DNA from: Humisphaera borealis | Lineage (GTDB): Bacteria > Planctomycetota > Phycisphaerae > Tepidisphaerales > Tepidisphaeraceae | Assembly (NCBI RefSeq): GCF_015169395.1 | Contig: NZ_CP063458.1 | Coordinates: 930,001-994,000, forward strand | DNA length: 64,000 nucleotides | Direction of reading: 5' to 3' | Shown here: in pieces, positions 4,666-58,888 of the stretch | How positions within the stretch are numbered: the first letter of the stretch is position 1 | How the letters are laid out: the number at the start of each line of letters is the position of its first letter | Translations under genes and position numbers: made by a program | The notes under the pieces: generated by a model | What the model saw: the letters and a program-made list of their open reading frames with translations, nothing else | What the model was told of the DNA's origin: nothing | Database searches by the model: none

Positions 4666-6702
4666 ATGCCCAATCACGACAGTCTTAACCTGCGCATTGG
4701 TGTCGACGTCGGTGGAACGTTCACCGACCTGGTGGCGTTCGACGGGCAGACGCTGCGCGTCGTGAAGATTCCTTCCACGCCGCCGGAATTCCACCGCGCG
4801 GTCATCGCTGCCGTCGCGACGGCGGCGAGTGACGGCGGGGCGGCCGAAGCGATCGTTCACGGCTCCACCGTCGCCACCAACGCACTGCTCGAACGCAAGG
4901 GCGAGCCCGTCGCGTTCATCACCACCGAAGGCTTCCGAGACATGCTGCTGATCGGCCGCCAGAACCGGCCCGAGCTCTACGCGCTGCACGTTGTTCGCCC
5001 GGCACCGCTGACGGCGGAGGAAAACTGGTTCACTGTCCGCGATCGAGTCAGCGCCGCCGGTGACGTCGTCACGCCGCTCGACCACGCCGAGGTGGACGCG
5101 CTGGTGGCGACCATCCAATCGCGCGGACTGAAGCACGTCGCGGTCTGCCTCATCTACAGCTACGTCAACCCAGCCCACGAGCGACTGATCGCCGAGCGGT
5201 GCAAAGCGGCGGGGCTCACGGTTAGCCTCAGCAGCGACGTGCTGCCGGAATTTCGCGAGTACGAACGTGCGAGCACCACGGTCATCAATGCGGCGCTGCG
5301 GCCACGGGTGGAAGAGTACCTGACGAAGCTGGAATCGGGATTGGGTGGCATGGGCAAGCGTACTCGCTTGCCCGTGGCGGACGCCGACCCACAAGCCCAC
5401 GGGCAAGCGAGTACGCTTGCCCATGCCACCCCTTCACCCACTCCACTGCAGATTATGTCGTCAACGGGCGGCACCCTTTCTGTTGTCGAAGCCTCCGTCT
5501 CCGCCGCACGGTTGGTGCTTTCAGGTCCGGCGGGGGGCGTCATGGGCGCGCTGCTGATCGCCAAAGCCGCCGGGCTCGAGAACGTCATCACCTACGACAT
5601 GGGCGGCACCAGCACGGATGTCGCGACGATCGTGGGCGGCAAGCCGCAGTGGACGACCGACGGCGTCATCGACGGCCTGCCCATCCGCCTGCCGGCGCTG
5701 GACATCCATACTGTCGGCGCGGGGGGCGGGTCGATCGCGTCTCTCGACGCCGGTGGGGCGCTGCGCGTCGGGCCGAAATCCGCCGGCGCGATTCCCGGCC
5801 CCGCGTGCTACGGCCGCGGCGGCACCGAGCCGACCGTCACCGATGCCAACCTGATTCTCGGCCGAATCCCCGCCGACCGATTCGCCGGCGGGCAGATGCT
5901 CATCGATTCTACCCTGGCCGCAAGCGCGATCGCGCCGCTGGCGGCGGCGATGGGCAAGTCGGTCGAAGAGGCTGCCGACGGTATCGTCCGTGTCGCCGAA
6001 GAGAACATGAGCCGGGCTGTTCGCGCCGTCACCAGCCGGCGGGGGCTCGATCCGAAGGACTTCGCGCTGGTCAGTTTCGGCGGGGCGGGCGGGCTGCACG
6101 CGTGTGCGATCGCCGAGTCGCTGGAAATCCGGTCGGTCATCATTCCTCCCTACTGTGGCGTGCTGAGCGCGCTGGGCATGGTCGCCGCGCCACCCGTCGC
6201 CGACGTCTCCAAGACCGTTTTGCACCTGGGCGAAGGCCTCGACGACCACCGCCTGTATGCCGAGTACGGCCACCTGAACATGCTCGCTTCCGACCGGCTG
6301 CCGCAGGAGCAGCTCGCGGCGGTCGAGGCCTACGCTGACGTCCGCTTCAAAGGCCAGTCTTACGAGCTGACGGTGCCCGTCCGCGGGGCTGACCGTGAGC
6401 GGATCGAGCAGAGCTTTCGCGATGCCTACGCCGAGCGCTACGGCAGTCTGCCCAGCGGCCGGGCGATTGAGATCGTCACGCTGCGGCTGCGGCGGGTCGG
6501 CCGGGTCGCGCCGATCGAACTGCCCACCATCGACGCCGACAGCACGCCGGTCGCCGGCGGGTTCCGAACGAGGGAGCAGTTGCTGGCGGCCGGCCCTACA
6601 CCCGGCCCTTTTCTGCTGATCGACGACCAGTCGACTACGTTCATCCCCACCGGTTGGACGGCACAGTGTGACGGGCGGGGGATTGTCACATTGGGGCGAT
6701 AG
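4666..6702 (+). CDS. Hydantoinase/oxoprolinase family protein, HyuA-type, with in-frame repeat insertion
   Basis: 678 residues. Members are ASKHA-fold ATPases that cleave 5-oxoproline, N-methylhydantoin or related lactams. Visible motifs: N-terminal IGVDVGGTFTDLVAF (phosphate 1), HGSTVATNALLERKG, the central SGPAGGVMGA and YDMGGTSTDVA (second ATP-binding segment), and a C-terminal HyuA_C-like domain. Residues 227-255 are encoded by an 87-bp REP doublet (5344-5430), a multiple of three, placed in the variable loop just before the IMSSTGG segment; relatives go straight from the helix VEEYLTKLE to this strand. No HyuB subunit gene is adjacent, which argues for a stand-alone or distantly encoded partner. 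The substrate is not predictable. Confidence 0.85.
   Translation: MPNHDSLNLRIGVDVGGTFTDLVAFDGQTLRVVKIPSTPPEFHRAVIAAVATAASDGGAAEAIVHGSTVATNALLERKGEPVAFITTEGFRDMLLIGRQNRPELYALHVVRPAPLTAEENWFTVRDRVSAAGDVVTPLDHAEVDALVATIQSRGLKHVAVCLIYSYVNPAHERLIAERCKAAGLTVSLSSDVLPEFREYERASTTVINAALRPRVEEYLTKLESGLGGMGKRTRLPVADADPQAHGQASTLAHATPSPTPLQIMSSTGGTLSVVEASVSAARLVLSGPAGGVMGALLIAKAAGLENVITYDMGGTSTDVATIVGGKPQWTTDGVIDGLPIRLPALDIHTVGAGGGSIASLDAGGALRVGPKSAGAIPGPACYGRGGTEPTVTDANLILGRIPADRFAGGQMLIDSTLAASAIAPLAAAMGKSVEEAADGIVRVAEENMSRAVRAVTSRRGLDPKDFALVSFGGAGGLHACAIAESLEIRSVIIPPYCGVLSALGMVAAPPVADVSKTVLHLGEGLDDHRLYAEYGHLNMLASDRLPQEQLAAVEAYADVRFKGQSYELTVPVRGADRERIEQSFRDAYAERYGSLPSGRAIEIVTLRLRRVGRVAPIELPTIDADSTPVAGGFRTREQLLAAGPTPGPFLLIDDQSTTFIPTGWTAQCDGRGIVTLGR
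5344..5430. repeat. Inverted REP doublet inside hyuA
   Basis: Left unit 5344-5377 and right unit 5397-5430 are inverted copies separated by 19 bp. Each unit has the hairpin GGGCAAGCG / CGCTTGCCC around TACT (or its complement), with GGTGGCAT outside. The same unit recurs at 36372-36405 and 49359-49391. The doublet is read as GMGKRTRLPVADAD and PQAHGQASTLAHAT without breaking the frame. Confidence 0.9.
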
Positions 6703-35686: not shown

Positions 35687-35754
35687 TGTAGGGCAGCTTT
35701 CAACGCATCACACCGGCCGCTAAACTCCCGACCCCTTACGAATTGGAGCGACAC

Positions 35755-36171
35755 ATGAGCAGCGATATCCGTATTTCCGTCACCGACCGTTTCGGCCGTC
35801 AGACCGCCAGCAGCGGCAGCAAGTGGGAGCCGATCATGGGCTATTCCCGCGCCGTCCGCAGCGGCAACTTCATCGCCGTCACCGGCACGGTCGGCGTCAG
35901 CGCCGATGGCTCCTATTCCAAGAGCCTCGGCGACCAGACCCGCCGCAGCCTGATGATCATCCGCGCCGCAATCGAAGCCCTCGGCGGCAAGATGGAACAG
36001 GTCATCCGCACGCGCATGTTCGTGACGGATGTCAGCAAGTGGGAGGAAGTCGCCCGCGTACACGGCGAAGTCTTCGGCGAAATCCGCCCGGCGACAAGCA
36101 TCCTGGAAGTGGCAAAGCTGATCGACGGCGACGCGCAGATTGAGATCGAGGCGGATGTGATTGTGGGCTGA
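35755..36171 (+). CDS. Rid (YjgF/YER057c/UK114) family protein without the RidA arginine
   Basis: 138 residues from the ATG at 35755, with GGAG seven bases upstream. The chorismate-mutase-like fold is recognisable: GYSRAVRSGNFIAVTGTVGV, IIRAAIEALGGKMEQVIRTR, FVTDVSKWEEVARVHGEVFG and IEIEADVIV. RidA enamine/imine deaminases have a catalytic Arg in the segment PARxxxEV. Here it reads PATSILEV, so the arginine is replaced by Thr. That points to one of the Rid subfamilies lacking deaminase activity. The partner or substrate is unknown. Confidence 0.85.
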   Translation: MSSDIRISVTDRFGRQTASSGSKWEPIMGYSRAVRSGNFIAVTGTVGVSADGSYSKSLGDQTRRSLMIIRAAIEALGGKMEQVIRTRMFVTDVSKWEEVARVHGEVFGEIRPATSILEVAKLIDGDAQIEIEADVIVG

Positions 36172-36182
36172 CAATAGTCGCG

Positions 36183-36330
36183 TGCCATGCCCACGCCGGG
36201 CCATGACACTTGAAGACTGATGGTCCTCCCGCGTGGGCGTGTGTAGGTTGATTTCGGCCGCAGAGCACATGCCCACGCGAGAGTGTCTCGCGGAACTTGA
36301 AGCCCATCTCTCGGAGTGGGCATGTCACAA
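36183..36330. repeat. Four-core palindromic element, copy 1
   Basis: Core octamers alternate in orientation: GCCCACGC (36189), GCGTGGGC (36231), GCCCACGC (36271) and a degenerate GAGTGGGC (near 36314). Start-to-start spacing is 42, 40 and 43 nt. The outer units read GTGCCATGCCCACG and GTGGGCATGTCAC. The same architecture occurs at 58657-58810. Confidence 0.85.
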
Positions 36331-36371
36331 AAGACGAAACCGTTGCCCGAGGGGAAGTCCGACAGCATCCG

Positions 36372-36405
36372 CCACGGGCAAGCGAGTACGCTTGCACATG
36401 CCACC
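36372..36405 (+). repeat. Single REP of the GGGCAAGCG family
   Basis: CCACGGGCAAGCGAGTACGC, then TTGCACATGCCACC: one mismatch to the right unit of the hyuA insertion at 5397-5430. It lies 30 bp from the purF stop and has no inverted partner nearby. Confidence 0.85.
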
Positions 36406-36434: not shown

Positions 36435-37892
36435 CTAGAACATCTTCAGCTGATCCCGCTCGAAGTAGAACTTGCTCTGCGGCTGGTCGATCGGGATCTT
36501 GTAGTGCCCGCTCCAGCAAGCCGAGCAGTAGTCCTTCGGCTGGCCGCGCATGCACGCGGCCATGCCTTCGAGCGACAGGTACGCCAGGCTGTCGACCTCC
36601 AGGAAGTCGGCGACTTCCTGCACGGTGCGGTTGTAGGCGATCAGTTCCTGGTTGGTGGGGAAGTCGATGCCGTAGAAACAGGGATGGCGGATCGGCGGGC
36701 AACTGACGCGAAGGTGGATCTCTTTCGCGCCGGCCCGGCGAATGGCGCGCATCTTGGAGCGCGTCGTCGTCCCGCGGACGACCGAGTCTTCCACGATTAC
36801 CACGCGCTTGTCGCGCACCACGTCTGGAATGATATTCAGCTTCACCGCGACGGCTTTATCGCGCGCGGCCTGGCCGGGGAGGATGAATGTTCGGCCGACG
36901 AAGCGGTTGGGGACGATGCCTTCTTCAAAGTCGATCTTGCTTTCCTTCGAGAAACCCAGCGCCGCCGACCGGCCGCTGTCGGGCATCGGCATGACGAAGT
37001 CGGCCTTCACCGGTGCTTCGCGGGCGAGTTGGCGGCCCATCGCCTCGCGGGTGATGTGCACGTTCTGCCCGAAGATCTTGCTCGCGGGGTTGCTGAAGTA
37101 GACGTGCTCGAACATGCACTGGGCCAGTTCGGGCGCGGGCACATCGTATTTGCGGGTGCTGACGCCGCTGTCGTCGATGCGGACGATCTCCGCAGGCTCG
37201 ATATCGCGGACGTACTCTGCGTCGATCGCGTCGAAGGCGCACGTCTCACTTGCGACACACCAGTGGCCTTCCCTTGTGCGGCCGAGGGCCAGCGGACGGA
37301 TGCCGTACGGGTCGCGGCAGGCCTCGATGCGGTCGGGGAAGAGGAACAGCAGGCTGAACGCACCCTGCAGATGCTTTAGAACGTGGATCAGCGGATCGGC
37401 CTTGCTGGCATGGCTCGGCTTGGCCAGCAGGTGGACGATGATCTCGGTGTCGGTCGTGCTCTGGAAGATGTGCCCGTGGGCTTCATATTCCTTGCGCAGC
37501 AGTTGAGCATTGATGAGGTTGCCGTTGTGCGCCACGGCGACCGGGCCGAGGGAGAACTCTCTCAGCAGCGGCTGCGCGTTGGCGAGCTTGCTGCTACCGG
37601 TGGTGCTGTAGCGCACGTGCCCGATCGCGCCGGTGCCGGCGAGTTCTTCCCGCAGCATGCGCGGCGTGAACACCTGGCTGACTAGGCCCATGCCTGTATG
37701 GCCATTCAAATCCTTGCCATCGGTGACGGCAATGCCGGCGGATTCCTGACCTCGGTGCTGCTGCGCGAACAGCCCGGTGTAGGTGATCTGCGCCGCTTCC
37801 TTCGGGCCCCAGATGCCGAAGACGCCGCATTTTTCTTTCTTCTCGTATTCATCGAGAAGACTGTCTTCAAGCACGGTGAGCGGAACGCTCAA
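36435..37892 (-). CDS. purF: Amidophosphoribosyltransferase
   Basis: 485 residues. It catalyses the first committed step of purine synthesis, converting PRPP and glutamine to phosphoribosylamine. The nucleophile is Cys22 in EKKEKCGVFG, after a 21-residue propeptide, as in the Bacillus-type enzyme. The Fe-S ligands of that type are present (CMFEHVYF, a later Cys, and DYCSACW near the end). Other landmarks: QQHRGQESAG, GHVRYSTTG, HNGNLIN, DSGRSAALGFS and the PRPP loop VVIVEDSVVRGTTTRSK. The start is taken as a TTG at 37892 with GGAG nine bases upstream; no ATG lies between the upstream stop and the catalytic Cys in a useful position. Confidence 0.93.
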   Translation of the reverse strand: MSVPLTVLEDSLLDEYEKKEKCGVFGIWGPKEAAQITYTGLFAQQHRGQESAGIAVTDGKDLNGHTGMGLVSQVFTPRMLREELAGTGAIGHVRYSTTGSSKLANAQPLLREFSLGPVAVAHNGNLINAQLLRKEYEAHGHIFQSTTDTEIIVHLLAKPSHASKADPLIHVLKHLQGAFSLLFLFPDRIEACRDPYGIRPLALGRTREGHWCVASETCAFDAIDAEYVRDIEPAEIVRIDDSGVSTRKYDVPAPELAQCMFEHVYFSNPASKIFGQNVHITREAMGRQLAREAPVKADFVMPMPDSGRSAALGFSKESKIDFEEGIVPNRFVGRTFILPGQAARDKAVAVKLNIIPDVVRDKRVVIVEDSVVRGTTTRSKMRAIRRAGAKEIHLRVSCPPIRHPCFYGIDFPTNQELIAYNRTVQEVADFLEVDSLAYLSLEGMAACMRGQPKDYCSACWSGHYKIPIDQPQSKFYFERDQLKMF

Positions 37893-37965
37893 GGGAATCT
37901 CCAGTGAGGCTGACCCGATGAGTCGGCCTCGCAAACAAATGGACCCGGTCAAGCTACGCAAAACG

Positions 37966-48050: not shown

Positions 48051-50723
48051 CTAAGCGGTCGTTGTCCCACCGAAGTACAATCCACCCCCGGCCGAACCGC
48101 TGAGCAGCCGTTCGGCCGGTTTGCTGCGCAGCAGCCCTCGCCACTGCAATGCGAACAGGATCAGAAGGCACAGCACTGCCGCGTTGATGTGCGTCGCGGC
48201 GACGAGATCGACATTCAGGTAGAGGATCAACCAGAGTACGACTCCCGGCCCGACGATCGACCGGGTCCAACCGAGCCCCGACAGCAACGCCACGGGGATC
48301 ACCATCAGCAGCAGGTCGTAGTCCATGAAGTAGGGGGCGCACAACGGCATCGCGGTGAACGCAAGTGCGATGACGCGCTGACGATTGGCGGAGGGGGCGA
48401 CGGCGTTTGATGACCCGGCGGTGTGGCATCGCACCCGCCAGGCGGCCCAACCGACCAGTAGCACGATCGCGACCGATACGACATGGCCGACGACGACCGC
48501 GACGCGCGACTCCACGCCGAGGAGTGCCCGCAGCGCAGCAGTCGGCGTCATCTGCCGGCCCCAGTTGTATCCCGGGTGAAGCTGCAACAGCCCGGCCTGC
48601 TGCGGAACCTGGGTGAGGAACTGCCACGTCAGGCCCGGCGAGAGCAACTCGCCGGCGGCCAGCAGCGCGAGCGATGTGAGCAGCATGCCCGCCAGGGCGC
48701 GACGCCCTTCGAGCATCCAGAGGGCAATGCCGACGGTGATCGCGAGTTGCGGCTTGAGCGACAGCAGTCCGATCAGCATTCCGGCGATCAGGACGTACCC
48801 GCGACGCCAGGCAACGAGAGCCGCCGTGAGGATGGCGAGGGAGATGAATGTGTTCTGCTGGTGCTCGACTGCGAGCAGAAACGGACAGCTCGTGATCGCC
48901 GCAATTCCAAGGAGCAGTGCCGGCCGCCGGTCAGGAATCCATCGGAGAATGATGCCCAGTGCGGCTGTCGCCAGGGCGGCGTTCAGGCCGATCCAGACGA
49001 GCAGGGCTGCGCGGTAGGGCATCAGCGCGAGCGGCGCAAACACGGCGGCGAAACCCGGCGGGTTGATCCACAGCGACTGCGAGACCTCGTTCGTCAGGTT
49101 CTGCTGGTCGATGATCGGCCGGGCCGTCGCGCGGATGACCTCGGCGTCGTACATCGCGCCTGCGCGTCCCTCGACGACCAGTCGCCCGGCGACGTAGGTG
49201 GGCAAAAGGTCGTGGCCGAATGTGAGCGGCTTCGCGCGGTCCAATACCCCGGCGGCGACGGCCATCGGGATGGCGATGGACGCTGCTGCCAATGAAAGCA
49301 TCGTAGCGCGACCCAGGAAGGAGCAGCGACGGTGCGGTGTTGGAGCGTCCGTTGATTGGGTGGCATGGGCAAGCGTACTCGCTTGCCCGTGATCGTTCGG
49401 CGATCGCGCGAACCACGGGCCTGCGCCGAGGTTTCGCAGTGACCCAAAGAATCGCGCCGACATCAGCAGCACAATCACACTGACGCCTGTCGCGTCGGCA
49501 ACGGCAGCGTTGAAATACATCCAGGCGTAGACGGCAGCCCACCCGGCGATCAGCCAGCGGTCGCCGGGCTGTCGGCCGGCTTGCATTCGTTCCGCTGCCA
49601 GCAGCACCGCCGGCACCGTCAGCAGGAGCAGGTCGTAGTCCATGTAGTAGGGCATCAGCAGCGGTGATGCTGCGATGGTCGCGGCGAGCAGGCTGTCGCG
49701 CGATCGACTCGAGGTCCTCTTCGTGACGCTTCGTGCCCTTTGTGCCTTCGTGGTGAATACGCTTAGCGTGAACGCTTTGCAGAGCGGGCCGACCAGCATC
49801 GCTGCGACAACAACAGCGCCAATCATCCAGAGCACGGTGACGATCGCCGGATTCGGCCCGCCCGTGCGGCCGGTGATGAGCAGTCGCCAGAAGCCGAGGA
49901 ACGTCGTCTGCCGTTCCCACGGGTAGGGGCGATCGGTTCGCAGATAGGGGAGCAGGCCGGGAAGCTTGTGGAGGTAATCGCCGATCGCTCCGGGCATGAA
50001 GGCGAGCGTCGCGGCCAGAAGAACAGCCGACGTGACGATCATCCCCGCGATCGCCCGGCGGCCGAGCGTGCACACCAGCGCGCCGCAGACGATAACGGCC
50101 AGTTGCGGCTTGAACAGCAGCAGTGCACCCACGGCGCCGGCGGCGAAGGCGCGGTCGGATCGGGCTAGCGTGATCGCGCTGCAGAGAATCAGCAGCGACA
50201 GAAACGTGTTCTGCTGGCACGCCATCGCCTGCAAGGCGGGCATCGAGACGACGACCAGGGCGGCGATGATCGCGCCGTCCCTCGGTCGGCGTTTATCCGC
50301 CGGCAGCATGCGGTAGAGCAGCACGATGGCCGCCGAGAGTATCAGCAGGTTCGCGGCGAACCAGGTCCACAGCGCCGCTCTATACGGCAACGCCGACAGC
50401 GGAACGAACATCGCGGCGTAGAATGGCGGATTGAGCCAGGGGCCGGTTCGGCCGTGCTGTTCGAGGCCCGCCTGAACTCGCAGTTGCGATTGGAATCGCT
50501 CGGCGGCGGGATAGTCGGTCAGCAGTTCGGTGCGGCCTTCACGAACGAAAGTGCCGGCCATGTAAGACGGCACCAGGTCATCGCCGAAGAGGTGCGCAAA
50601 TGGCGAAGTCTCCGGCCCGCCCAGGTGCAACGCAGCGGCGATGGAAATCACCAGCACTACCATCGCAAACGCCGCCAGTTGCAGGCGGTCGCGCAGGGTG
50701 CGAGGTTGACGGGTGGTCAGCAC
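48051..50723 (-). CDS. Fused tandem GT87 (DUF2029) mannosyltransferase-like protein
   Basis: 890 residues, about twice the usual GT87 length. Residues 1-430 and 455-880 are each a full GT-C-type unit with the same order of motifs: LVPSYMAGTFVREGRTELLTD versus LLPTYVAGRLVVEGRAGAMYD, WLNPPFYAAMFVPLSALPYRAALW versus WINPPGFAAVFAPLALMPYRAALL, HQQNTFISL-type segments, and MPYYMDYDLLLLTVPAVLLA versus APYFMDYDLLLMVIPVALLS. The 25-residue linker is encoded by a REP (49359-49391, HGQASTLAHAT). The enzyme would use polyprenyl-phosphate sugars. A third unit follows in the next gene. Confidence 0.85.
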   Translation of the reverse strand: MLTTRQPRTLRDRLQLAAFAMVVLVISIAAALHLGGPETSPFAHLFGDDLVPSYMAGTFVREGRTELLTDYPAAERFQSQLRVQAGLEQHGRTGPWLNPPFYAAMFVPLSALPYRAALWTWFAANLLILSAAIVLLYRMLPADKRRPRDGAIIAALVVVSMPALQAMACQQNTFLSLLILCSAITLARSDRAFAAGAVGALLLFKPQLAVIVCGALVCTLGRRAIAGMIVTSAVLLAATLAFMPGAIGDYLHKLPGLLPYLRTDRPYPWERQTTFLGFWRLLITGRTGGPNPAIVTVLWMIGAVVVAAMLVGPLCKAFTLSVFTTKAQRARSVTKRTSSRSRDSLLAATIAASPLLMPYYMDYDLLLLTVPAVLLAAERMQAGRQPGDRWLIAGWAAVYAWMYFNAAVADATGVSVIVLLMSARFFGSLRNLGAGPWFARSPNDHGQASTLAHATQSTDAPTPHRRCSFLGRATMLSLAAASIAIPMAVAAGVLDRAKPLTFGHDLLPTYVAGRLVVEGRAGAMYDAEVIRATARPIIDQQNLTNEVSQSLWINPPGFAAVFAPLALMPYRAALLVWIGLNAALATAALGIILRWIPDRRPALLLGIAAITSCPFLLAVEHQQNTFISLAILTAALVAWRRGYVLIAGMLIGLLSLKPQLAITVGIALWMLEGRRALAGMLLTSLALLAAGELLSPGLTWQFLTQVPQQAGLLQLHPGYNWGRQMTPTAALRALLGVESRVAVVVGHVVSVAIVLLVGWAAWRVRCHTAGSSNAVAPSANRQRVIALAFTAMPLCAPYFMDYDLLLMVIPVALLSGLGWTRSIVGPGVVLWLILYLNVDLVAATHINAAVLCLLILFALQWRGLLRSKPAERLLSGSAGGGLYFGGTTTA
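49359..49391. repeat. REP of the GGGCAAGCG family inside the fused GT87 gene
   Basis: The left unit of the hyuA doublet recurs here exactly (GGTGGCATGGGCAAGCGTAC, then TCGCTTGCCCGTG). It is translated on the minus strand as DHGQASTLAHATQ in the junction between the two GT87 halves. Confidence 0.9.
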
Positions 50724-56402: not shown

Positions 56403-58574
56403 TTGCAGTTCCAGAACCGGTCGCAGACGACCGCCCTTCAACCCACAGTCGAGCAACTGGAATCGCGGCGGCTTTGCGCCGTGAATCCCACCGTGGTGGA
56501 CGTCGCGGTCTACTACACGCCCGCCGCCCGCAACAGCGTCGGCGGGGTCGAGAACCTTTCGCATCGTCTCGATCGCGCGATCGCCGATACCAACGTCATC
56601 CTCGCCAACAGCCGCATCGACGCGACCGTCCGCCTCGTCTGGTTCGGCGAGACCTCGTACAAGGAATCCGGCACCCTCGCGACCGATCTCGGCCGGCTGC
56701 AGAACCCTGCCGACGGATACCTCGATGCGGTGCATGCCCAACGCACCAGCCGCGGGGCCGACCTGGTTCATCTGCTGGTCGCCGACGGCGACGACGGCGG
56801 CCGGGCCTACCAGTTGGACGACCCCTCCAAGTCCTGGTCGGAGTTCGGTTTCGCCGTCTCGCAGGCACGCTATACCAATATCGAGTACATCTTCGCCCAC
56901 GAGACCATGCACAACAGCGGTGCCGGTCACGATGACACCGACACCGGCAAACGCCAGATCCCTTACGCTTACGGCCTGGGCGTCAAGACCGGCACGCAGA
57001 CCGTTCACACCCTGATGGGACCGGGCACCCGACTGCCGTACCTGTCGAGTCCGGACCTGAGCTGGCGTGGCCAGCCCCTCGGTATCGCGGCGGGTTCGAC
57101 GCAGGCGGCGCGTCTCGGACACGCGGCCGACAACGCCCGCGTGGTTCGCGAGTTCCTGCCCCGCGTCGCCGCTCACCGCTCCACCTTCGTCACCGACGCC
57201 ACGCCGCCCGCCGCCCGCCTGATACAGTCCTGGGTCGATAGCTCCGGCAAAACACTCAGCATCCAGGTGGCACTGGCCGACGATTCGGCGATCAACGTCA
57301 GCACGCTCGGCAACACCGACCTGCGAATCACCGGGCCCAACGGCTTCAGCAAGGCCGCCACCTTTGCCGCCGTCGATCGCGCCACCAACGGGTCGCAGCG
57401 ACTCGCCCGCTACAAGGTAGACCTGACCGGCTACCCCGCCGACCCCGCGCTCTATACCGCCACCCTCAACAGCGGGCAGATCGCCGACATTGGCGGTCGC
57501 ACGGTCGCCGGGGGCACGCTCGGGCTTTCAGGGGGCGTTACCCGCTTCGGCGACCGCGCGGGGCCCAATCTGCAGACGTCCCTCGAACTGGGCGCCGTCG
57601 ACGGCATGAGCCGCGTCATCACCGACGGCATCGGCGACGTCGATCCCCTCAACTTCTACCGGTTCTCGCTCAAGACCGCCGGCACGATCACTGCCCGCCT
57701 CGCCGGCCTCTCCGACAACGCGAACCTCTTCCTGGTGAAGGACACCGACGCCAACGGCGAAGTCGATTCCGGCGAAATGCTGGCATCGAGCACCAACGCC
57801 GGCACGTCGGTCGAGCAGGTCAGCCGGTCGCTGTCGGCGGGGGTGTATTACCTCTGGGTCACGCCCGCCGGCGGGGCGGTCACGAATTACACCCTGTCGC
57901 TCAAGGCAACAGCCGCTGGTCCGGGGTCGCCCCCCAGCCAACCCCCGCCCACGGTCAATGGCAGCATCCGCGGGCTCGCCTGGCGCGACAACAATGCCAA
58001 CGGCGTGCAGGACAGCTGGGAAATCGGCCTGTCCGGGTGGTCCGTGTATGCCGACGTCAACGGCAACGGCGTCTACGACTCGGCCGACGCCCGCGCGACG
58101 ACCGATTCGACCGGTGCCTACACGCTGACCAGCCTGCCGCCCGCAAACTACACCGTTCGTTCGATCGATCAGTCCGGCTATCGCCGAACCACACCGGCTT
58201 CGACCAGCGTCGCCGTCGCGGCGGGGCAGTCGGTTATTGGCATCAACTTCGGGCATACGCCTCGCGTGCTAATCAGCGGCGTCGTCTACACCGACACCAA
58301 CCGCAATCAGGTCCGCGACGCCGCCGAAACCGGGCAGGGGGGCTGGACCGTCTATCGCGATGCCAACAATAACAGTCGGTTCGACGCCGGCGAATCCGCC
58401 TCGGTCACCGATGCCTCCGGCTACTGGTCCATCAAAGACGCACTGCCCGGAACGTTCGTCGTGCGACTGATCGCCCGCCCCGGCTACAGCAGTGCCCCCG
58501 GCGGCTGGACGCTCGACCTCACGTCCGGACAAACATCCACCGGAAGAAACTTCGGCGTTCGAGCCGGGGCCTGA
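56403..58574 (+). CDS. Secreted metzincin-type metalloprotease with PPC and SdrD-B-like domains
   Basis: 723 residues from a TTG with GGAG nine bases upstream; no ATG is suitably placed. The N-terminus carries the export-type motif VEQLESRRLCA. The protease domain (about 30-240) has the zinc site HETMHNSGAGHD, i.e. HExxHxxGxxHD of the metzincin clan, and a downstream Met-turn candidate HTLMGPG. Then follow an Ig-like region (about 258-380), a PPC domain (about 400-505, LNFYRFSLKTAGTITARLAG) and two SdrD-B-type repeats (LAWRDNNANGVQDSWEIGLS, VVYTDTNRNQVRDAAETGQG) with Ca2+-binding character. It is probably an extracellular protease. Confidence 0.85.
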   Translation: MQFQNRSQTTALQPTVEQLESRRLCAVNPTVVDVAVYYTPAARNSVGGVENLSHRLDRAIADTNVILANSRIDATVRLVWFGETSYKESGTLATDLGRLQNPADGYLDAVHAQRTSRGADLVHLLVADGDDGGRAYQLDDPSKSWSEFGFAVSQARYTNIEYIFAHETMHNSGAGHDDTDTGKRQIPYAYGLGVKTGTQTVHTLMGPGTRLPYLSSPDLSWRGQPLGIAAGSTQAARLGHAADNARVVREFLPRVAAHRSTFVTDATPPAARLIQSWVDSSGKTLSIQVALADDSAINVSTLGNTDLRITGPNGFSKAATFAAVDRATNGSQRLARYKVDLTGYPADPALYTATLNSGQIADIGGRTVAGGTLGLSGGVTRFGDRAGPNLQTSLELGAVDGMSRVITDGIGDVDPLNFYRFSLKTAGTITARLAGLSDNANLFLVKDTDANGEVDSGEMLASSTNAGTSVEQVSRSLSAGVYYLWVTPAGGAVTNYTLSLKATAAGPGSPPSQPPPTVNGSIRGLAWRDNNANGVQDSWEIGLSGWSVYADVNGNGVYDSADARATTDSTGAYTLTSLPPANYTVRSIDQSGYRRTTPASTSVAVAAGQSVIGINFGHTPRVLISGVVYTDTNRNQVRDAAETGQGGWTVYRDANNNSRFDAGESASVTDASGYWSIKDALPGTFVVRLIARPGYSSAPGGWTLDLTSGQTSTGRNFGVRAGA

Positions 58575-58585
58575 CGGGCGACCCG

Positions 58586-58888
58586 GAGAACACGAAGGCG
58601 CGAAGGCACGAAGAAGGCACGAAGAAAAAGCCAGGCTTTGTCTGAAAACCTGATTGGTGTGCCATGCCCACGCCTGGATATCACTTTTGAATCGAGAGAG
58701 GCTCTGCCGCGTGGGCATGCGATCACGCGGAACTGTGTCGCCCGCACATGCCCACGCGGGGGACAGTTCTAGAGGTCCAATGCCGCAGCCCGGCGTGGGC
58801 ATGGCACACCACTTTTCAGACAGAGCCTGACAAAGAGGGGTGCCCGGGCCTTCGCGACCTCTTCGCGGCTTCGCGCCTTCGTGTTCTC
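58586..58888. repeat. Nested inverted repeats; outer arms of the ACACGAAGG family
   Basis: GAGAACACGAAGGCGCGAAG (58586-58605) is the exact reverse complement of CTTCGCGCCTTCGTGTTCTC (58869-58888). They enclose the four-core element and fill most of the 348-bp gap between two genes. Confidence 0.85.
58657..58810. repeat. Four-core palindromic element, copy 2
   Basis: Core octamers GCCCACGC (58666), GCGTGGGC (58709), GCCCACGC (58750) and GCGTGGGC (58793) alternate in orientation. Start-to-start spacing is 43, 41 and 43 nt. Outer units are GTGTGCCATGCCCACGCC and its complement, and the pairing extends outward, with two small gaps, to AGGCTTTGTCTGAAAA (58633-58648). Copy 1 is at 36183-36330. Confidence 0.9.

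Follow-up and report, generated by a model that had tools for sequence, protein, structure and literature searches.

At two places in a 64,000-nucleotide stretch of the Humisphaera borealis genome (the window: positions 930001-994000 of a single contig of 7,189,892 bp), a short octamer and its complement alternate four times at nearly constant distances. What kind of element has such a plan, and how does it spread? At 58666-58800 the octamers GCCCACGC/GCGTGGGC are exact at all four positions (58666+, 58709-, 58750+ and 58793-), separated by 43, 41 and 43 nt. At 36189-36320, cores at 36189+, 36231- and 36271+ are followed, at a distance of about 43 nt, by a fourth (GAGTGGGC, from 36314) with one mismatch. 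Alternating cores in chains of at least three, with 30-50 nt from one to the next, appeared in none of 200 dinucleotide shuffles of the window. The arrangement, first noticed in a sequence-only reading of this DNA, is real.

Layout of the four-core elements

The repeat proper extends past the octamers, its outer ends consisting of a tag followed by CATGCCCACGC (36180-36330; 58657-58809). The first element (36180..36330) lies between convergent genes, a RidA/L-PSP-type gene on the plus strand (35743-36171) and a purF-like glutamine-amidotransferase gene on the minus strand (36435-37961). Its half A (36180..36241, +) has the tag GCGTGC and a stem CATGCCCACGC...GCGTGGGCGTG; a spacer (36242..36267) separates it from half B, an inverted unit (36268..36330, -) with a degenerate outer core and the tag TTGTGA. 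The second element (58657..58809) is found downstream of a metallopeptidase/SdrD_B gene (56403-58574, +). Here half A (58657..58719, +) and the inverted half B (58747..58809, -) each consist of a GTGTGC tag and a hairpin, on either side of a spacer (58720..58746). Both window copies, the only two examined for annotation, are intergenic.

A count over the whole genome gave 99 occurrences of the wider motif CATGCCCACG and 11 of its reversed control. The repeat, here called family 1, comprises 18 dispersed full-length copies with four recognisable cores, including both window elements, and three partial copies, of which one retains three cores and the other two are single units. Distances between ATGCCCACG cores in the 18 copies are 45.9 ± 0.4, 37.9 ± 0.7 and 45.9 ± 0.7 nt (46/38/46). 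Random spacing or core number, which the sequence-only reading had named as the outcome speaking against it, was not seen among these copies, all spacings having an SD below 1. The same reading held that spacing is kept while the DNA between cores is poorly conserved; the first half of the statement stands, and the second needs softening, the inter-core DNA being less conserved yet alignable, with a mean pairwise identity of 66%.

Read from their outer ends, halves A and B are one homologous unit of 62-63 nt in inverted orientation; the family 1 element is therefore an inverted dimer. Within the 63-nt unit, the tag at the 5' end is GTGTGC or GGGTGC, and an 11-bp stem CATGCCCACGC...GCGTGGGCATG encloses a loop of about 35 nt. 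Its consensus begins G(T/G)GTGCCATGCCCACGC and finishes with CCCGCGTGGGCATG; the roughly 35 nt in between often have TTCGA at their centre. A spacer of 26 nt joins the two units. Single units fold on one strand through a core 1-core 2 stem; a strand of the whole element folds strongly, and preferentially as nested 1-4/2-3 pairing. Bertels and Rainey describe the same two folds for REPINs, one a long hairpin and the other clover-shaped (PMC3116915).

A second, more abundant repeat shares the genome. Its heads, GGGTGSCATGSSC, number 179 against 1 in the control, mostly as doublets of 89-94 bp (GGGTGSCATGGGC-NNNN-GTAC-NNNN-GCCCGTGG-spacer-inverse), with a minority of 40-bp single hairpins. In the window it is found at 5343-5431, at 49358-49430 and, as a degenerate copy beside the first four-core element, at 36370-36405; other copies sit within other inverted repeats (TGCTCTGTCACACC, GAGGGTGTAGCGCA).

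Strong folding, and the position of both window copies after gene ends and between convergent reading frames, would fit selection of each copy where it now stands, as a structured RNA or as a transcription terminator working in both directions; in other bacteria, repetitive extragenic palindromes (REPs) are known to affect the ends of mRNAs. However, a scan of the element gave no Rfam match above the gathering score, no T run follows the stems, the copies are dispersed among unrelated genes, and the hairpins are associated with a transposase clade (see below). We consider this origin quite improbable. As a secondary effect, such a role is compatible with the REP doublet explanation developed below.

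Four-core plans in other Planctomycetota

A search of 391 other genomes sampled from the phylum gave no match to the half-element pattern at family 1 spacing. Of 120 genomes from the class, 15 contain tag and core together (GGTGSCATGCCCACG), and a scan of named genomes with GGTGSCATGCCCACG gave matches in a Pirellulales bacterium (SJ322), Planctomycetes bacterium Pan216, a groundwater Planctomycetota MAG and Phycisphaerales RYN_430, the last being the same-genus genome G001. Four-core layouts in relatives are 46/42/47 in G001, 20/29/20 and 20/30/20 in G044 and G453, 15/21/15 in SJ322 and 17/6/17 in G463, with single hairpins elsewhere. The layouts differ between lineages, and spacing is thus lineage-specific. 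Judged from these sequences, the rule kept across relatives is that the distance from core 1 to core 2 equals that from core 3 to core 4, forming two equal hairpins with their tags outward.

These layouts bear on the proposal that a period near four helical turns places all cores on one face of the DNA. An array of double-stranded sites for a dimeric DNA-binding protein would account for the near-invariant spacing within the genome, cores 1 and 3 lying 84 bp, or about 8 helical turns, apart. Relatives, however, keep four cores with a core 1-core 3 distance of 49, 36 or 23 bp, single-hairpin forms exist, and stems covary between families with no single sequence kept. The helical phasing does not survive the 20/29/20, 15/21/15 and 17/6/17 nt plans, and we see almost no chance that such an array explains the element. 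The sequence-only reading had offered a protein array or a folded single strand; its one-face array fails, and its folded single strand comes close to the explanation that we prefer.

Two features of related genomes were noted in passing. In the same-genus MAG (G001:C699, L082, about 280-752), a truncated integron-integrase-like gene adjoins the four-core element, and its frame runs into the element. The gene prompted the idea of an integron attC site, which was rejected as no attC features were found: attC sites also have four cores folding as nested pairs on one strand, whereas family 1 has no IntI-type boxes, its cores are far apart and it is linked to Y1 genes. We take the gene fragment to be incidental. 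In Pan216 (L118, L120-L122, L124, L125), units of 29-30 nt that each contain CATGCCCACGC form tandem arrays, and these terminate in one full hairpin with a GGGTGC tag.

A RAYT clade flanked by hairpins with the same tag

The weaker-scoring Y1 genes of these genomes form a clade of REP-associated tyrosine transposases (RAYTs), with the HUH motif and the motifs conserved in RAYTs (MP[EN]HVH, FWQ.GGG[YF]DRN and YIHxNPVRRGL). All seven aligned members match the NCBIfam model REP_Tyr_transpos (NF047646), two scanned singly exceed its cut-off, and the best PDB match is TnpArep (4er8). In G044 the RAYT gene (C179:1124-1693) lies exactly between two GGGTGGCATGCCCACGC hairpins with the CATGCCCACGC core, tags outward, which are of the same type as the repeats of that genome. 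Beside the RAYT of G493, on one side only, stand three CATGCCCACGC units with long loops, whose 49-50 nt spacing resembles that of family 1. In H. borealis itself, a clade RAYT (1060211-1060777) is bracketed exactly by a pair of inverted second-family REPs (GGGTGSCATG), tags outward. No RAYT bracketed by family 1 was found in its own genome, nor any RAYT relic near the family 1 copies there.

The association was assessed with a mechanical test that looked up to 250 nt from a Y1 gene for GTG[CG]C-tagged hairpins with the tag outward. In a set of genomes selected in part for carrying the motif, such hairpins flank 16 of 18 clade loci and 5 of 34 other Y1 loci. In an independent sample of the phylum they flank 20 of 29 clade loci versus 2 of 26 others (Fisher p = 4.5e-6); the loci include some paralogues, making the counts not fully independent. 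Other tags are much rarer beside clade and other Y1 genes alike. Strong Y1/IS200 genes were rejected as partners, having TAG-tagged hairpins beside them instead. In other genomes (L149, L150, L171, L147), TAG-tagged hairpins (for example TAGCCCACGGCGTAAGCCGTGGG) stand on both sides of strong Y1/RAYT genes; a TAG-tagged REP system and a GTG[CG]C-tagged one coexist in the same genomes. The window has a weak Y1_Tnp match of its own (440-601, 22.8 bits), in a long open frame at its left edge, and no tagged hairpins were seen beside it.

An alignment was made of the tags and stems from 14 REPs, the majority lying in clade RAYT flanks; its stem part (A2) was trimmed manually to the 8 bp adjoining the tag. 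In this 8-bp stem 93.8% of cells are paired and 7 of 8 pairs have changed on both sides. The covariation score is 0.602 versus 0.223 after shuffling, and a sliding control drops to 24-48% paired. The tag (GTG, then C or G) stays constant while the stem varies, a combination that, at the level of sequence comparison, is the signature of a structure recognised through its tag and shape.

The doublet plan in relatives, together with a RAYT clade bracketed by GTG[CG]C hairpins whose stems covary, leads us to interpret the four-core element, with a probability of roughly 0.87, as a REP doublet of the REPIN/BIME type, a non-autonomous relative of units whose spacer is a RAYT gene. From what is observed (the repeat family, its layout, the covarying stem and the association of this type of tag with a single RAYT clade), a mechanism can be proposed in which the RAYT, a Y1 (HUH) transposase, would bind tag and hairpin on single-stranded DNA, cut the doublet and copy it into new intergenic sites. 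Action of TnpAREP on single strands is established in vitro (PMC8266576). Because of its lower identity and the failure to find a cognate RAYT, we infer that family 1 has long been present in this genome. Its own RAYT may have been lost; alternatively, the single clade RAYT present, partner of the second family and of the same tag, may serve both families.

Like the REPINs and BIMEs of the RAYT (TnpAREP) system (Bertels and Rainey 2011, PMC3116915; Nunvar 2010, PMC2817692), family 1 consists of inverted REPs, each a tagged imperfect palindrome capable of forming a hairpin, around a near-constant spacer, in many dispersed non-autonomous copies. REPIN palindromes also flank a RAYT gene, as hairpins with the CATGCCCACGC core do on both sides in G044 and on one side in G493. 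With this layout already described, and hairpins of the same family bracketing the RAYT of G044, the view that no element of this form is known does not hold. The unit measures 63 nt and the doublet 153 nt versus typical REPs of 20-40 bp. Some points count against the REP doublet: the loops, at about 35 nt, far exceed those of described REPs; the tag, mostly GTGC, sometimes GTGG, and followed by CA, is not the canonical GT[AG]G (PMC6006769); the genome yielded no RAYT bracketed by family 1; and neither an empty site nor a target duplication was established for the copies. Family 1 hence falls outside the GTAG-tagged super-family as defined by GT[AG]G. The GTAG- and CGTC-tagged super-families (Di Nocera 2013, PMC3733652) resemble it in having tagged stem-loops, commonly as dimers, and a REPtron structure, and they too occur in Planctomycetes, where many tyrosine transposases of R. 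baltica are noted as flanked (PMC3733652); the family 1 tag is neither GTAG nor CGTC. TIRtrons/TIRYT and TnpAREP subclasses likewise have Y1 genes between inverted repeats, some of them palindromic, some subclasses have atypical secondary structures, and class 3 includes Planctomycetes (PMC3733652; PMC6006769). As described, however, class 3 has the tag CnGA and the motifs NHVH / YV..EQ, whereas the clade studied here, with MP[EN]HVH, FWQ and YIHxNP, is nearer class 2.

Features that appear new are the tag, which is GTGSC and not GTAG, the great length of the loops, and the outer 17-bp inverted repeats that enclose one subfamily (next section). No description of a GTGC tag was found in the literature searched, mostly open-access main texts, and an earlier description is possible. 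Somewhat better than even, in our estimate, are the odds that Planctomycetota harbour a third phylum-wide super-family of tagged REPs (GTG[CG]C-A, beside GTAG and CGTC), each version having its own RAYT from the one clade, with stems free to change and the tag kept, some being long-looped and captured in larger inverted-repeat elements. The REP doublet explanation itself extends the RAYT-REPIN system to a clade whose guide tag differs, and accounts for a conspicuous planctomycete repeat by an ordinary mechanism. If, as proposed in PMC8266576, the tag selects the cleavage dinucleotide, cuts would be predicted at GC for GTGC tags and at CC for GTGG tags.

Outer inverted repeats and composite copies

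Inverted repeats of 17 bp resembling AGGCTCTGTCTCAAAAC lie 7-8 nt outside the doublet in 11 of the 18 full-length copies. These 11 form a subfamily, with 76% identity among themselves and 60% to the remaining copies; tag-to-tag and TIR-to-TIR versions thus coexist in this genome. The second window element belongs to this composite subfamily: its left outer repeat, AGGCTTTGTCTGAAAAC (58633..58649, +), stands 7 nt outside the doublet and the right one (58812..58828, -) reads AGGCTCTGTCTGAAAAG on the minus strand. At 6202889-6202935 there is a reduced copy made of a TIR pair and GTGTGCCA, without the four cores.

A different reading takes AGGCTCTGTCTCAAAAC as the true end of a MITE of a DDE transposon and the four cores as internal palindromic filler. 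The fixed distance of the outer repeat from the doublet, the coherence of the subfamily and the lone TIR pair at 6202889-6202935 all favour it. Yet the outer repeat is missing from 7 of the 18 full-length copies, from the same-genus copy and from the other genomes seen; no complete parent transposon with AGGCTCTGTCTCAAAAC ends was found in the genome, and no target duplication was seen by eye at the copies. A MITE would also leave the RAYT association of the same hairpins unexplained. We regard this reading as unlikely, though less so than the other alternatives. The outer repeats also count against the REP doublet explanation, suggesting that part of the spread of the larger subfamily may be due to another transposase. 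Under that explanation, a REPIN would have been captured in a small inverted-repeat element, and the larger subfamily probably spread as a composite of about 200 bp.

Flanking inverted repeats around the copies show no significant general enrichment overall and are confined to individual cases. The second window element is enclosed by a longer imperfect inverted repeat of the TTCGCGCCTTCGTGTTCTC type (58586-58624 and 58850-58888); similarly, the reduced copy at 6202889 is surrounded by a CTCCGTG-type repeat resembling it.
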